Shown here: positions 26 through 41,090 of the stretch, one piece after another
Layout of the letters: each line of letters begins with the position of its first letter
Numbering within the stretch: the first letter of the stretch is position 1
Assembly (NCBI RefSeq): GCF_000407185.1
Contig: NZ_KE136481.1
Location: forward strand, 1-64,000
Origin: Enterococcus malodoratus ATCC 43197
Lineage (GTDB): Bacteria; Bacillota; Bacilli; Lactobacillales; Enterococcaceae
Direction: 5' to 3'
DNA length: 64,000 bases
Notes under the pieces: model-generated
The model's input: the letters and a program-made list of their open reading frames with translations, nothing else
What the model was told of the DNA's origin: nothing
Database searches by the model: none
Translations under genes and position numbers: made by a program

Positions 26-141
26 TGTGGTGGCGATAGCGGGAAGGATACACCTGTTCCCATGTCGAACACAGAAGTTAAGCTTCTTAGCGCCGATTGT
101 AGTGAGGGGTTGCCCCTTGTGAGATTAGGACGTCGCCACGC
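26..141 (+). rRNA. rrf: 5S ribosomal RNA
   Basis: A complete 5S rRNA gene of about 116 nt. It shows the Gram-positive 5S core (ends pairing as GTGGTGGCGA with TCGCCAC, internal CCCATGTCGAACACAGAAG). It is followed directly by a tRNA cluster on the same strand, so this is the distal end of an rRNA operon whose 16S and 23S genes lie to the left of the window. Ends are accurate to a few bases. Confidence 0.95.
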
Positions 142-149
142 TGTATTAT

Positions 150-223
150 TCCGGCATAGCTCAGTTGGTAGTAGCGCATGACTGTTAATCATGATGTCGT
201 AGGTTCGAGTCCTACTGCCGGAG
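150..223 (+). tRNA. tRNA-Asn (GTT)
   Basis: Cloverleaf with acceptor arms TCCGGCA/TGCCGGA, anticodon loop CTGTTAA (anticodon GTT) and T-arm GTAGGTTCGAGTCCTAC. It begins 8 nt after the 5S rRNA and is the first tRNA of the cluster. No CCA is encoded. Confidence 0.95.
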
Positions 224-272
224 TTTCTCGAAAGAGAATTAATAGAGTATTGGGCCTTTGTGCTCCTATCTT

Positions 273-361
273 GGAGAGTTGTCCGAGTGGCCGAAGGAGC
301 ATGATTGGAAATCATGTAGGCGGGTATTCCTGTCTCAAGGGTTCGAATCCCTTACTCTCCG
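273..361 (+). tRNA. tRNA-Ser (GGA)
   Basis: A class II tRNA of 89 nt with a long variable arm (GCGGGTATTCCTGTC region). Acceptor arms are GGAGAGT/ACTCTCC and the anticodon loop TTGGAAA gives GGA. No CCA is encoded. Confidence 0.95.
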
Positions 362-376
362 TATCAACTTTTTACT

Positions 377-448
377 GGCCCGTTGGTCAAGCGGTTAAGA
401 CACCGCCCTTTCACGGCGGTAACACGGGTTCGAGTCCCGTACGGGTCA
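377..448 (+). tRNA. tRNA-Glu (TTC)
   Basis: Acceptor arms GGCCCGT/ACGGGTC contain one G-U pair. The anticodon arm CCGCC-CTTTCAC-GGCGG gives anticodon TTC. The T-arm is CGGGTTCGAGTCCCG. Confidence 0.95.
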
Positions 449-461
449 TTTAATTAAATAT

Positions 462-534
462 GGAGGTTTAGCTCAGCTGGGAGAGCATCTGCCTTACAAG
501 CAGAGGGTCAGCGGTTCGATCCCGTTAACCTCCA
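462..534 (+). tRNA. tRNA-Val (TAC)
   Basis: Acceptor arms GGAGGTT/AACCTCC; anticodon arm TCTGC-CTTACAA-GCAGA gives TAC. It ends 3 nt before tRNA-Asp. Confidence 0.95.
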
Positions 535-537
535 TTC

Positions 538-610
538 GGTTCCGTGGTGTAGGGGTTAACATGCCTGCCTGTCACGCAGGAGATCGCGGGTTCAAATCCC
601 GTCGGGACCG
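538..610 (+). tRNA. tRNA-Asp (GTC)
   Basis: Acceptor arms GGTTCCG/CGGGACC; anticodon arm CCTGC-CTGTCAC-GCAGG gives GTC. A CCA follows the discriminator G at 611-613, so the CCA end is genome-encoded here, unlike in most tRNAs of this cluster. Confidence 0.95.
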
Positions 611-642
611 CCATTTAATTAAAAACTTTAAACTATATTTAT

Positions 643-715
643 GGCGCGGTAGCTCAGTTGGTAGAGCAACGGATTGAAGCTCCGTGTGTCGGCAGTTCGA
701 TTCTGTCCCGCGCCA
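643..715 (+). tRNA. tRNA-Phe (GAA)
   Basis: Acceptor arms GGCGCGG/CCGCGCC; anticodon arm ACGGA-TTGAAGC-TCCGT gives GAA. Encoded CCA follows at 716-718. Only 1 nt separates this CCA from tRNA-Tyr. Confidence 0.95.
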
Positions 716-719
716 CCAT

Positions 720-800
720 GGAGGAGTAGCGAAGTGGCTAAACGCGACGGACTGTAAATCCGTTCCTTAGGGTTCAGTGGTTCGAATCCACTCTCCTCCA
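720..800 (+). tRNA. tRNA-Tyr (GTA)
   Basis: An 81-nt class II tRNA. Acceptor arms are GGAGGAG/CTCCTCC, the anticodon loop CTGTAAA gives GTA, and a long variable arm follows (CCTTAGGG region). Confidence 0.95.
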
Positions 801-808
801 TTTGTTTC

Positions 809-879
809 AGGGGCATAGTTTAAAGGTAGAACAGCGGTCTCCAAAACCGTTAGTGTGGGTTCAATTCCTGCTGCCCCTG
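809..879 (+). tRNA. tRNA-Trp (CCA)
   Basis: Acceptor arms AGGGGCA/TGCCCCT; anticodon loop CTCCAAA gives CCA. Length is 71 nt. Confidence 0.95.
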
Positions 880-893
880 TTCTTTATTGATAT

Positions 894-967
894 GGCGATC
901 GTGGCGAAGTGGTTAACGCACCGGATTGTGGCTCCGGCACTCGTGGGTTCGATTCCCATCGTTCGCC
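894..967 (+). tRNA. tRNA-His (GTG), copy 1
   Basis: Anticodon arm CCGGA-TTGTGGC-TCCGG gives GTG. The extra 5' G (position -1) faces the discriminator C, as is characteristic of tRNA-His. The acceptor stem GCGATCG/CGTTCGC carries one T-T mismatch. The 74-nt gene is base-for-base identical to the copy at 1351-1424. Confidence 0.94.
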
Positions 968-975
968 CTTTTTAT

Positions 976-1047
976 TGGGGTATAGCCAAGCGGTAAGGCA
1001 AGGGACTTTGACTCCCTCATGCGTTGGTTCGAATCCAGCTACCCCAG
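976..1047 (+). tRNA. tRNA-Gln (TTG)
   Basis: Acceptor arms TGGGGTA/TACCCCA; anticodon arm GGGA-CTTTGAC-TCCC gives TTG. Length is 72 nt. Confidence 0.95.
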
Positions 1048-1116
1048 TTTTCTTGGAAAAGTATCAAGAAACTTTCTTGAAAAATACTTGTTCTAAGGAG
1101 AAAACAATAGTATAAT

Positions 1117-1187
<71 letters not shown>

Positions 1188-1211
1188 TAGTACTAGAATA
1201 TTTATTGACAT

Positions 1212-1295
1212 GCCGGCGTGGCGGAATTGGCAGACGCGCTGGACTCAAAATCCAGTGCCCTCACGGGCGTGCCGGTTCGACCCCGGCCGCCGGTA
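1212..1295 (+). tRNA. tRNA-Leu (CAA)
   Basis: An 84-nt class II tRNA. Acceptor arms are GCCGGCG/CGCCGGT, the anticodon arm CTGGA-CTCAAAA-TCCAG gives CAA, and a variable arm follows. A strong terminator begins 4 nt after its 3' end. Confidence 0.95.
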
Positions 1296-1298
1296 TTG

Positions 1299-1333
1299 AA
1301 CTAAGATGTTATTACATCTTAGTTCTTTCTTTT
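1299..1333 (+). terminator. intrinsic terminator after tRNA-Leu
   Basis: A perfect 11-bp hairpin, AACTAAGATGT / ACATCTTAGTT with loop TATT, followed by CTTTCTTTT. It would end the main rRNA-tRNA transcript before the second tRNA-His. Confidence 0.85.
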
Positions 1334-1350
1334 GAATTGAATAGCACCAT

Positions 1351-1424
1351 GGCGATCGTGGCGAAGTGGTTAACGCACCGGATTGTGGCTCCGGCACTCG
1401 TGGGTTCGATTCCCATCGTTCGCC
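1351..1424 (+). tRNA. tRNA-His (GTG), copy 2
   Basis: Identical over its whole length to the tRNA-His at 894-967, including the T-T mismatch in the acceptor stem. It lies between two intrinsic terminators, only 17 nt after the first, with no recognisable promoter of its own. Expression therefore probably depends on readthrough of the upstream terminator. Confidence 0.93.
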
Positions 1425-1431
1425 CTAACTG

Positions 1432-1803: not shown

Positions 1804-2970
1804 CTACCCTTTAAAATTATACAATGGTCGAATGACTTCCTTAACTTCCATTGTTTCATGCAAATTTGTCAGTAATTGTTTCTTAGACTTATATGCTTTA
1901 GGTGCTTCATCTAATGTTTTTTTTGAGACAGAAGTCGACCAAACGTGACGCATCATATGCTGATAGTTTTCGAGACTGATTGACGCTCTGGCTTGAGAAC
2001 GGCTCATCATCCGACCCGCACCGTGAGGGCCAGATTGATTCCACTCATTATTACCTTTTCCGACACCAATGATGGAGCCGTCTTTCATATTTAAAGGAAC
2101 GATCATTTTCTCGTTTCTTCTCGCAGAAGATGCTCCTTTACGTAGAATCAGGTGTTTCAAATCAATATAATTATGGGGACTATCAAAGCTTTCGACGACA
2201 TGTTTTTCCCATTTCATCGCTTTTAAGATTGTCAGGGCCATACTTTGACGATTGAAGGTCGCATATTGTTGCGCGATTCTCATATCAGATAAGTAATTGG
2301 TTAAATCGTTTTCTGATACATAAGACAATTCATACGGGATATTTAATTCTTCTCTTTGTTGAATAAGATCTTCTTTTTCAGCAGGATCAATTGCTGATCT
2401 TGATCGAAGTTTCAATTCTTGCCGTTGTTGCGTCAATTTTTGATAAGCGATCTCCTGATGATATTCCGCAATTTCATTGCCTAATATACGGCTGCCGCTA
2501 TGAATAACTAAATAAAAACCATCTGATCCCTCATTGACCTCAATAAAGTGATTTCCACCGCCTAGTGTCCCCAAACTCCGCAACGCTCGTCCACAGTGAA
2601 CAGGAGCCTGAACATTTTCTAAAGGAAATGTATATAAGGGTTTGTTGTGGGAATGATGCCCGCTGGGAATACGATTACGAATTGTTCGATCTAATTTATC
2701 AAAGTTTAGTTTGATGCCTTTTCTCATTTTTGTTACATAGAGTCCGCAGCCAATGTCTACGCCGACAAGGTTAGGGACGACTTGATCCTTTATGGTCATT
2801 GTCGTACCGATGACACAACTGGAACCGCTGTGGGTATCAGGCATGATTCGGATTTTAGCATCGGTTGCAAACTTCTGATTGCAAAGTGTCGTGATTTGAC
2901 CAAGCGTGCTGTCAGTTATGTTGTCTGTATAGACTGTTGCTGTAGTGTATTTTCCTTTTATTGTTAACAT
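1804..2970 (-). CDS. rtcB: RtcB-family RNA-splicing/repair ligase
   Basis: RtcB ligases join RNA 2',3'-cyclic-phosphate (or 3'-phosphate) ends to 5'-OH ends using GTP and Mn2+, acting in tRNA and rRNA repair. The 388-residue protein shows the family signatures in order: MPDTHSGSSCVIGTTM near the N-terminus, the metal-binding GVDIGCG (Asp and Cys), GGGNHFIEV and HSGSR (metal His), and GPHGAGR near residue 316 with the His that is guanylylated. It is of the short RtcB class and ends in the usual LYNFKG. The start has an AGAGG ribosome-binding site 7 nt upstream that lies inside a potential alternative hairpin. Two short ORFs and a terminator precede it on the same strand. No archease or RtcA partner is nearby. 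The tRNA cluster on the facing strand makes tRNA repair a reasonable guess at its role, but that is inference. Confidence 0.95.
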   Translation of the reverse strand: MLTIKGKYTTATVYTDNITDSTLGQITTLCNQKFATDAKIRIMPDTHSGSSCVIGTTMTIKDQVVPNLVGVDIGCGLYVTKMRKGIKLNFDKLDRTIRNRIPSGHHSHNKPLYTFPLENVQAPVHCGRALRSLGTLGGGNHFIEVNEGSDGFYLVIHSGSRILGNEIAEYHQEIAYQKLTQQRQELKLRSRSAIDPAEKEDLIQQREELNIPYELSYVSENDLTNYLSDMRIAQQYATFNRQSMALTILKAMKWEKHVVESFDSPHNYIDLKHLILRKGASSARRNEKMIVPLNMKDGSIIGVGKGNNEWNQSGPHGAGRMMSRSQARASISLENYQHMMRHVWSTSVSKKTLDEAPKAYKSKKQLLTNLHETMEVKEVIRPLYNFKG

Positions 2971-3007
2971 AGTTAATCCTCTCGTAGAGGAATAAACGAA
3001 TTCCTCT
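2971..3007 (-). promoter_or_regulatory. three-arm hairpin switch over the rtcB ribosome-binding site
   Basis: Read on the minus strand there are three arms. Arm 1 is AGAGGAAT (3007-3000), arm 2 is ATTCCTCT (2993-2986) and arm 3 is AGAGG (2982-2978). Arm 3 is itself the rtcB Shine-Dalgarno sequence. Arms 1 and 2 pair perfectly over 8 bp with a 6-nt loop, leaving the site open. Arms 2 and 3 can pair over 5 bp with a 3-nt loop, hiding it. Arm 1 starts only 2 nt after the stop codon of the 13-codon leader ORF, so a ribosome at that stop would cover it. The arms are seen in the sequence; the switching is inferred. Confidence 0.5.
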
Positions 3008-3009
3008 GG

Positions 3010-3051
3010 TTAATTAGTATTGTTCTCTGATTTCTTTCTTTTTCCACTCAT
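3010..3051 (-). CDS. 13-residue leader peptide upstream of rtcB (candidate)
   Basis: A short ORF encoding MSGKRKKSENNTN, rich in Lys/Arg and Asn codons. Its start is preceded by a strong GGAGG ribosome-binding site 8 nt away. The TAA stop lies 40 nt before the rtcB start and immediately before the hairpin arms described above. The layout resembles translational attenuators such as the erm leaders, in which ribosome position on a leader peptide decides access to the next gene. No homologue is known to me. Confidence 0.5.
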   Translation of the reverse strand: MSGKRKKSENNTN

Positions 3052-3114
3052 AGGAAACACCTCCGTAGATTTTCTAATTCTGATAAGTGTAATAAATTTA
3101 TAGTAATGAAATAT

Positions 3115-3151
3115 GCAAAAAAAAAACTGCCAATCGTATGATTGACAGTTT
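3115..3151 (-). terminator. intrinsic terminator between the 33-residue ORF and rtcB
   Basis: On the minus strand AAACTGTCAATC pairs with GATTGGCAGTTT (one G-U pair, 4-nt loop) and is followed by a run of ten T. It sits 17 nt after the stop of the 33-residue ORF. It could be a plain terminator for that ORF or an attenuator ahead of rtcB. Confidence 0.85.
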
Positions 3152-3167
3152 GACAAATAGGCTTTAT

Positions 3168-3269
3168 TTACGAAATTAGAGAGACTGGCGAATAAGACGC
3201 TCTGTTCGAATAAAACGAATGCAATAAATCAATCAATTGTATTTGGTTGGCTTTTTTGGTCTTAATCAT
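3168..3269 (-). CDS. 33-residue small ORF, unknown function
   Basis: Starts MIKTKKANQIQLIDLL and ends SYSPVSLIS. It has a good ribosome-binding site (AAAGGAGAG ending 6 nt before ATG), a promoter-like TTGACA/TAAAAT upstream and a strong terminator downstream, so it has every element of an expressed transcription unit. The peptide is basic at the N-terminus with an amphipathic middle and no clear signal peptide or membrane span. It may be a free small protein or a leader peptide for rtcB. I recognise no family. Confidence 0.5.
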   Translation of the reverse strand: MIKTKKANQIQLIDLLHSFYSNRASYSPVSLIS

Positions 3270-3300
3270 AATGCTCTCTCCTTTCTTTAAATTCTTTTTA

Positions 3301-3330
3301 ATTTTATCATCACTATTGTCGGTCTGTCAA
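3301..3330 (-). promoter_or_regulatory. promoter for the 33-residue ORF / rtcB unit
   Basis: On the minus strand TTGACA (3330-3325), an 18-bp spacer and TAAAAT (3306-3301). It is just downstream of the merR stop codon and 31 nt before the small ORF start. Confidence 0.6.
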
Positions 3331-40615: not shown

Positions 40616-40684
40616 AATGTCTTCCTACTTTCCTATCATTATATGTTTCCGAGCTGTCTGACCATTTTTTTGTTCTTTTATAAA

Positions 40685-40782
40685 GTTTTTGTAATGATCT
40701 GTAGAGCACAGCTACCCTGAAGCTACCCGCCGAATAGTTCGATTAGCTTCTTCCTCGTCACCTCTAAAAGAGGTCTGGCGCT
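40685..40782 (-). promoter_or_regulatory. glmS ribozyme (glucosamine-6-phosphate riboswitch)
   Basis: On the minus strand the conserved core reads AGCGCCAGACCTC (self-cleavage expected between A 40782 and G 40781), then the P2 hairpin ACCTCT/AGAGGT, GACGAGGAAGAAGCTAATCGA, TTCGGCGGGTAGCTTC and a downstream P4-type stem. These match the glmS ribozyme, which cuts its own mRNA when GlcN6P is abundant. It ends about 70 nt before the glmS start. The 3' boundary is approximate. Confidence 0.9.
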
Positions 40783-41090
40783 ATCTTATTGGTATGATTA
40801 AGATTTTTTTGTATTATTATCGGAAACAATGACTAATATAATATAAACAATCCGACTAGTCAAATATTTTTTTATTTTTACTTAATTGGTATATATGGAA
40901 TTTGTGAAAAAGAATTGGAAAGCAAAGGGACTTCTGCATTTCATCTATTTATAGAATAGGGTAAAATAAGAAGTATCATTTGCTGAGCGATACTAATACA
41001 ATGACTTCTTATTGTTTGCAGATATTGTTCTCTATTGATTTAAATTTTTGTGAGTTTTTATTTCACAAAAAAATGAGAGGGGAAAACTAA
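40783..41090. other. intergenic region between glmS and the sppA operon
   Basis: No gene is seen. AATAAGAAGT (40965-40974) and ACTTCTTATT (41004-41013) form a perfect 10-bp outer stem; inside, GTATC and GATAC form a competing or nested stem. There is no T-run on the plus strand, while on the minus strand ATTTTA follows. It could be a leader structure of the downstream operon or a minus-strand terminator or small RNA. Confidence 0.45.

Follow-up and report, generated by a model that had tools for sequence, protein, structure and literature searches.

How the RNA ligase RtcB is switched on in Gram-positive bacteria is the question raised by the rtcB gene of the window, as we call the whole 64,000-nucleotide stretch of Enterococcus malodoratus DNA analyzed here. 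In E. coli, translation-impairing agents and lesions act through RtcR to induce rtcBA, which helps the cell survive tetracycline and tRNases, according to passages of one report (PMC5175333), and excerpts of another name broken tRNA as the rtc signal in Salmonella (PMC7790460). A model published in 2025 of how Rtc repair operates during antibiotic exposure likewise concerns E. coli, and its excerpted passages mention neither Listeria, Enterococcus nor attenuation (PMC12606134). The literature searched yielded no description of the signal that induces RtcB in Gram-positive bacteria, and the titles and abstract openings of the open-licence literature searched contained none of leader control of rtcB. 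In the window's genome, PF06956 (RtcR) and PF01137 (RtcA) had no matches, with positive E. coli controls, and archease was not found. The best TIGR03072 (PrfH) matches in the genome scored 119.3 and 95.7 bits, below the cut-off of 166.65, and both are probably ordinary release factors. The usual protein sensor is thus missing, because no RtcR, RtcA, archease or PrfH above the cut-off is present. An RtcR-controlled rtc operon was ruled out by the absence of RtcR and RtcA, and an RtcB2–PrfH ribosome repair pair was rejected on the sub-threshold PrfH scores. Elsewhere in the window, a 5S rRNA gene and 13 tRNA genes (26–1425, plus strand), with tRNA-His (gtg) occurring twice, converge with rtcB, and a glmS ribozyme lies at 40650–40793 on the minus strand (74.5 bits).

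The region preceding rtcB contains two small upstream open reading frames (uORFs), each with its own Shine–Dalgarno sequence (SD) and paired elements, as listed here in window coordinates:

1804..2970, minus strand: rtcB, RNA ligase of 388 aa (PF01139, E 6.3e-57), ATG at 2970
3301..3330, minus strand: promoter-like site TTGACA-18-TAAAAT, with TG preceding the second hexamer; 11/12 matches
3272..3286, minus strand: uORF1 SD region AGAAAGGAGAGAGCA, candidate for pairing with the uORF1 end (anti-antiterminator arm)
3168..3269, minus strand: uORF1, an open frame of 33 codons, MIKTKKANQIQLIDLLHSFYSNRASYSPVSLIS, with a strong SD
3228..3235, minus strand: candidate antiterminator arm TGATTGAT in the middle of uORF1, pairing with 3146–3139
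3171..3186, minus strand: uORF1 end segment, candidate partner of the uORF1 SD region
3124..3151, minus strand: intrinsic terminator of 12 bp, followed by a T run
3058..3064, minus strand: uORF2 Shine–Dalgarno GGAGGTG
3010..3051, minus strand: uORF2, 13 codons, MSGKRKKSENNTN, ATG at 3051, stop codon ending at 3010
3000..3007, minus strand: arm 1 AGAGGAAT, 2 nt past the uORF2 stop
Between arms 1 and 2, minus strand: loop TCGTTT
2986..2993, minus strand: arm 2 ATTCCTCT, predicted to open the SD by pairing with arm 1 or close it by pairing with arm 3
Between arms 2 and 3: spacer ACG
2976..2982, minus strand: arm 3 AGAGGAT, including the rtcB Shine–Dalgarno AGAGG (2982–2978)

The first-pass annotation had described the 13-codon ORF, its GGAGG site and the three mutually exclusive arms, and these coordinates and pairings are exact. 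Its central idea, a leader ORF tied to exclusive hairpins over the rtcB SD, is supported in kind; the anatomy was incomplete, with the promoter-like site, the 33-codon ORF and the terminator missed. The leader is real and conserved, and the ORF and arms noted earlier are half of a larger element. An mRNA start downstream of 3051 would have spoken against the earlier proposal; the predicted start lies upstream, at the promoter-like site 3330–3301, a kind of site that shows no excess over the whole region (7 found against 9.9 expected). The leader is single-copy, and no second copy was found elsewhere in the genome.

Conservation was surveyed at 41 loci (L numbers) whose RtcB is 59–100% identical to that of the window. 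They comprise 21 Enterococcus-type loci including the window (L001–L021), 18 loci from the order search (L053–L070), of which 16 are Listeria and two (L054, L060) belong to another family, and two Bacillaceae, Heyndrickxia and Cytobacillus (L038, L039). L026–L037, L040 and L041 are the same places as counted loci and were counted once; L024/L025, L042, L043, L045, L046, L048, L050–L052 and seven RtcB matches without loci, among them a 5'-truncated Listeria copy in genome G158, were left out. Every one of the 41 loci carries at least one module and 36 carry both. Only uORF1 and the terminator are present in L054, L069 and L070 (the last two at the L. costaricensis/L. ilorinensis record positions), and only uORF2 and the arms in L038 and L039. 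Since these five loci have just one of the two modules, the modules are separable. The earlier proposal had been made to depend on conservation of the ORF and arms in relatives; uORF2 and its arms are found at 38 of the 41 loci. Neither module was seen by eye at six loci with RtcB less than 50% identical (L022, L023, L044, L047, L049 and L080). L022 (G003) and L023 (G011), both of the window's genus, encode a different RtcB (43–45% identical) without the leader, and the L023 copy has one in-frame TAA within the match. A class-level search of 398 genomes at E ≤ 1e-135 returned the window alone, and the Bacillaceae evidence therefore consists of two loci. In all 17 loci L001–L017 the promoter-like site has TTGACA and a spacer of 18; its score is at least 9/12 in 24 of 39 leaders, with most Listeria leaders below that value. 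The leader sequences diverge, and the leader peptides differ completely between lineages.

In the module next to rtcB, arms 1:2 fold with −10.1 kcal/mol and arms 2:3 with −7.6 kcal/mol. When a ribosome was represented by masking 15 nt either side of the P-site codon, the modeled openness of the rtcB SD was 0.61 with the ribosome on the uORF2 start, 0.63 without a ribosome and 0.02 with the ribosome at the uORF2 stop. These values agree with the proposed behavior, in which a ribosome at the leader end closes the SD and an early one opens it, as does the preference of both hairpins for their own partners in 14 lineages. The start–stop difference is significant in the window (p = 0.013, 300 dinucleotide shuffles of the spacer), with the alternation rarer in the shuffles. 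The plain fold of the 116-nt region is of ordinary stability (z −0.49; 56 of 200 shuffles fold equally well or better), so the signal lies in the alternation and not in general stability. Overall, p < 0.05 was obtained in 21 of the 37 leaders tested, the window included and L008 being untestable. Switching was not significant in L005, L007, L009–L017, L038, L039, L059, L060 and L067. In L009–L017 the SD is about 0.40 open whatever the ribosome state, and any switching there would need to be kinetic.

uORF2 measures 9–14 codons in 37 of 38 leaders, and arm 1 begins 0–3 nt past its stop in 37 of the 38; because the folds were started at the stop codon, this distance shows an immediate arm 1 and not the absence of pairing further upstream. 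The exception is L008, in which the uORF2 frame continues through the arms. In the window and its relatives, the leader ORF thus ends at the arm that would decide the fate of the SD, as in translation attenuators of the erm, cat and toiL kind. The uORF2 stop lies 39 nt ahead of the rtcB start in the window, and this spacing reaches 91–98 nt in L018, L019 and L021. In an alignment of 18 Enterococcus sequences, the uORF2 start region (3064–3040; GGAGGTG...CC-ATGAGTGGAA) is nearly invariant, which seems to exceed the needs of an SD and a start codon.

The promoter-proximal module consists of a leader ORF with an SD ahead of an intrinsic terminator, both in the window and in 39 of 39 uORF1 leaders (with manual placement of the terminator in L054, L060 and L067). 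uORF1 is open in all 39, with 28–47 codons (33 in each of L001–L007, 35 in L008), and 77 of the 78 alternative frames are closed by a stop within 21 codons. Between L016 and L017, a one-base insertion shifts the uORF1 frame; the ORF is still open (42 and 37 codons, respectively), and the shifted uORF1 of L016 still ends close to the terminator. Compared with shuffles, the anti-antiterminator involving the uORF1 start region has p < 0.05 in 23 of 39 leaders; it is not significant in the window alone (p = 0.150) or in any of the eight leaders of its genus. For the antiterminator, p < 0.05 was reached in 11 of 39 leaders, with p = 0.050 in the window and no significance in the main Listeria group. 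An antiterminator exclusive with the terminator fits in the window's genus and several other groups.

At equilibrium, the complete terminator of the window is 0.93–0.96 formed in all states, and a ribosome on codon 1 brings it below 0.6 only in L004, L055, L066 and L067 among the 39 leaders. Such a folded terminator would be expected only if the choice is made during the passage of RNA polymerase. As the terminator is folded nearly always at equilibrium, the model of this stage used transcripts truncated ahead of the terminator 3' arm. In the truncated transcripts of the window, the terminator 5' arm is engaged upstream at 0.72 with a ribosome on codons 1–7 and at 0.28 without a ribosome or with one on codons 9–23; it is re-engaged at codon 27 (0.72) and codon 31 (0.53), and the value at the stop is 0.33. 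L010, L011, L015, L054 and L067 likewise show early-codon peaks above a low value without a ribosome. In L002, L004, L006 and L020, the ribosome-free leader already engages the 5' arm at 0.81–0.90, and the arm is released when a ribosome sits midway along uORF1. Within the main Listeria group (11 loci), engagement is highest in the unoccupied leader (0.78–0.89). The models thus suggest "early stall on, passage off" as the common pattern of this stage in Enterococcus, with a no-ribosome state that is mixed across relatives.

The four helices were further examined by a partner swap, in which the summed duplex energy of own partners was compared with that of partners from other lineages (one representative per lineage; 20,000 permutations; lineages defined by sequence similarity and genus label rather than by a tree). 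Own partners were favored in each case: −261.5 against a permuted mean of −196.6 for the uORF1 SD with the uORF1 end (p = 0.00005, 15 lineages), −158.0 against −124.3 for mid-uORF1 with the terminator 5' arm (p = 0.00005, 15 lineages), −162.9 against −97.2 for arms 1:2 (p = 0.00005, 14 lineages), and −144.2 against −119.2 for arms 2:3 (p = 0.0004, 14 lineages). Controls against rtcB coding segments gave p < 0.05 in 3 of 30, all three involving the terminator 5' arm, and none of eight cross-pairings inside the leader did so. When each lineage was counted singly, own partners outscored 90% or more of the swaps in 7 of 15 for the uORF1 SD and end, 5 of 15 for mid-uORF1 and the 5' arm, 7 of 14 for arms 1:2 and 1 of 14 for arms 2:3. 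Within groups, the 23 pairs of the anti-antiterminator are paired in 86.3% of cells in nine E. moraviensis-related sequences, against 53.0–65.0% when slid; the four doubly changed pairs among them are a count reached by 233 of 500 shuffles, and 4 of 500 attain the covariation score. Across eight sequences from the genus of the window, pairing of the antiterminator holds in 95.3% of cells against 12.5–54.4% when slid, with one doubly changed cell, as many as 129 of 500 shuffles reach.

In Listeria, part of this leader is already catalogued under another name. The Rfam model rli24 (RF01461) matches 13 of the 16 Listeria loci searched (L053, L055–L059, L061–L066 and L068, at about 1201–1365). It occurs in 13 of 25 Listeria genomes and starts 293–300 nt upstream of rtcB in all 13. 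Within the rtcB leader, rli24 starts at the uORF1 SD and reaches halfway into the terminator. Because of this span, rli24 is most simply explained as the prematurely terminated rtcB leader, although it is catalogued as a separate small RNA and the window itself has no match above the gathering score. In the Rfam drawing, the terminator 5' arm is the partner of the uORF1 SD, and the Listeria 5' arm might instead pair in this way. Among the 12 Listeria genomes without rli24, seven lack any rtcB match, the only one in G276 is distant, and in G123, G199 and G117 rtcB lies behind a divergent leader. The G158 copy (C1:290808-291572) encodes only RtcB residues 138–392 and is 5'-truncated, with neither the leader nor an rli24 match. 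In the literature searched, one report names rli24, placing it among small RNAs that are raised inside macrophages and occur in some of the lineage II strains (PMC3556495). The description line of RF01461 reads "Listeria sRNA rli22"; the excerpted passages of a Listeria review use the name rli22 for another RNA, describe a ribosome-mediated attenuator in rli60, and mention neither rli24 nor rtcB (PMC8079631).

Considering these results, we think it likely that two ribosome-sensing attenuators in series control rtcB, which would be expressed upon early ribosome stalling or when ribosomes do not complete the leaders. The first stage would act on transcription. A ribosome loads on uORF1 and, in passing through, would disturb its middle, so that the uORF1 SD pairs with the uORF1 end; with this anti-antiterminator in place, the terminator would form and transcription would stop ahead of rtcB. 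A ribosome stalled within about the first seven codons would cover the SD and leave mid-uORF1 available for holding the 5' arm of the terminator, with transcription continuing into rtcB. The second stage would act on translation. A ribosome at the uORF2 stop would mask arm 1, allowing arm 2 to close the rtcB SD, whereas after an early stall on uORF2, or with ribosomes missing, arm 1 would take arm 2 and the SD would open. With this proposed polarity, which follows the folding models, both stages would favor rtcB upon translation failure. Both uORFs are presumably translated, and we infer from the models the kinetic nature of the first stage and its behavior without a ribosome. Folding, conservation and analogy together indicate that the leader most likely senses translation failure; its signal may be general translation stress, such as that caused by ribosome-targeting antibiotics or cleaved tRNA or rRNA.

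Several known systems come close to this arrangement. In the excerpts available, vmlR of B. subtilis has a uORF start within an anti-antiterminator, an antiterminator, an intrinsic terminator and an SD hairpin, and a stalled ribosome causes readthrough and opens the SD (PMC9226507). It differs in having one three-codon uORF and in serving drug protection, whereas the rtcB leader has two longer uORFs, one for each level, and precedes the gene of an RNA-repair ligase. In E. coli, toiL upstream of topAI is a uORF that senses many kinds of stalls and frees a sequestered ribosome-binding site; its termination is Rho-dependent and inside the gene, in contrast to the intrinsic terminator before the gene and the second uORF of the rtcB leader (PMC12121999, in part). 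Tandem leader ORFs on one mRNA are known from Salmonella mgtCBR, in which they read different signals (ATP and proline) and both act on transcription; those of rtcB would act with the same polarity on transcription and, most likely, on translation (PMC3641672, in part). The proteobacterial rtcBA–RtcR system also turns rtcB on upon trouble in the translation apparatus or broken tRNAs. However, its sensor is a sigma-54 activator with a CARF domain, while the candidate sensor here is an mRNA leader (passages of PMC5175333 and PMC7790460).

The closeness to vmlR raises the alternative of an antibiotic-specific stall leader resembling those of erm or vmlR, in which one drug class stalls the ribosome at a given uORF codon and RtcB confers drug tolerance. 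The anatomy of the first stage is the same as in vmlR, whose induction tracks the antibiotics able to stall on its uORF (excerpts of PMC9226507). We nevertheless regard this reading as unlikely, given leader peptides that are wholly different between lineages and the uORF1 of L016, frame-shifted yet open. Leaders dedicated to drug arrest usually depend on a peptide or codon that is conserved. The alternative also overlaps with the general reading, since toiL answers several drug classes (PMC12121999, in part). A codon-specific sensor, as proposed in the first-pass annotation, would detect a shortage of intact tRNA-Lys or tRNA-Arg through ribosomes that stall on uORF2, and would thereby switch on tRNA repair. 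All 21 Enterococcus uORF2s do contain at least two Lys/Arg codons, four of 13 in the window, and Lys is frequent in uORF1 codons 2–9 (12 of 15 lineages; 0.15 against 0.07 elsewhere). On the other hand, Asn, Thr and Ile are about equally common in these uORF1 codons, and no residue occurs within them in all 15 lineages, in contrast to the conserved run of cognate codons expected of an amino-acid-specific attenuator. In the main Listeria subgroup, 10 of 11 uORF2s lack Lys and Arg and the eleventh has one, yet the arms are the same in kind. Furthermore, a codon-specific stall is unneeded in the window because the absence of a ribosome opens the SD as a start-bound one does. The Lys/Arg specificity is therefore probably wrong, and a codon-specific sensor appears quite improbable.

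Two further alternatives dispense with the sensing of ribosomes. Hairpins that work without translation, as a leader bound by a protein or small RNA, a thermosensor or a trans-acting small RNA (rli24), would account for the conserved helices, for the Rfam entry of the Listeria stretch as a small RNA with its SD–5' arm pairing, and for the grouping of rli24 with small RNAs raised inside macrophages (PMC3556495, in part). They would leave unexplained why each ORF has retained its SD and start codon, why uORF1 is open in every leader that has it, why uORF2 ends at arm 1 with a single exception, and why the paired elements are SDs and ORF ends; we give this explanation very little probability. Finally, uORF2 could simply feed rtcB by translational coupling or reinitiation, with the hairpin blocking read-in and nothing being sensed. 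The short distance between the uORF2 stop and the rtcB start in the window and the stronger SD of uORF2 would suit such coupling. It would not call for keeping arm 2 complementary to arm 1 as well as to the SD region, as is the case in 14 lineages, and the wide spacing in L018, L019 and L021 also argues against it, making this the least credible of the explanations considered.

Two attenuators in series that read translation failure would provide a testable answer to what induces RtcB in Gram-positive bacteria, and would reach the rule known from E. coli, that translation damage induces rtcBA, by other means. If this is true, the catalogued Listeria small RNA rli24 would gain a role, and a repair enzyme would join the genes run by stall-sensing uORFs. 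A bolder view, which we put forward only tentatively, is that these Bacilli could run RNA repair without a protein sensor by having the mRNA query the ribosomes twice and making RtcB when both queries report damage. Here uORF1 would test for initiation without elongation, uORF2 would test whether ribosomes reach the end, and rli24 would be the "all is well" product of the uORF1 query. Since RtcB would then be made on reports of damage, the ribosomes and tRNAs that it mends would themselves be the sensor, closing a feedback loop.
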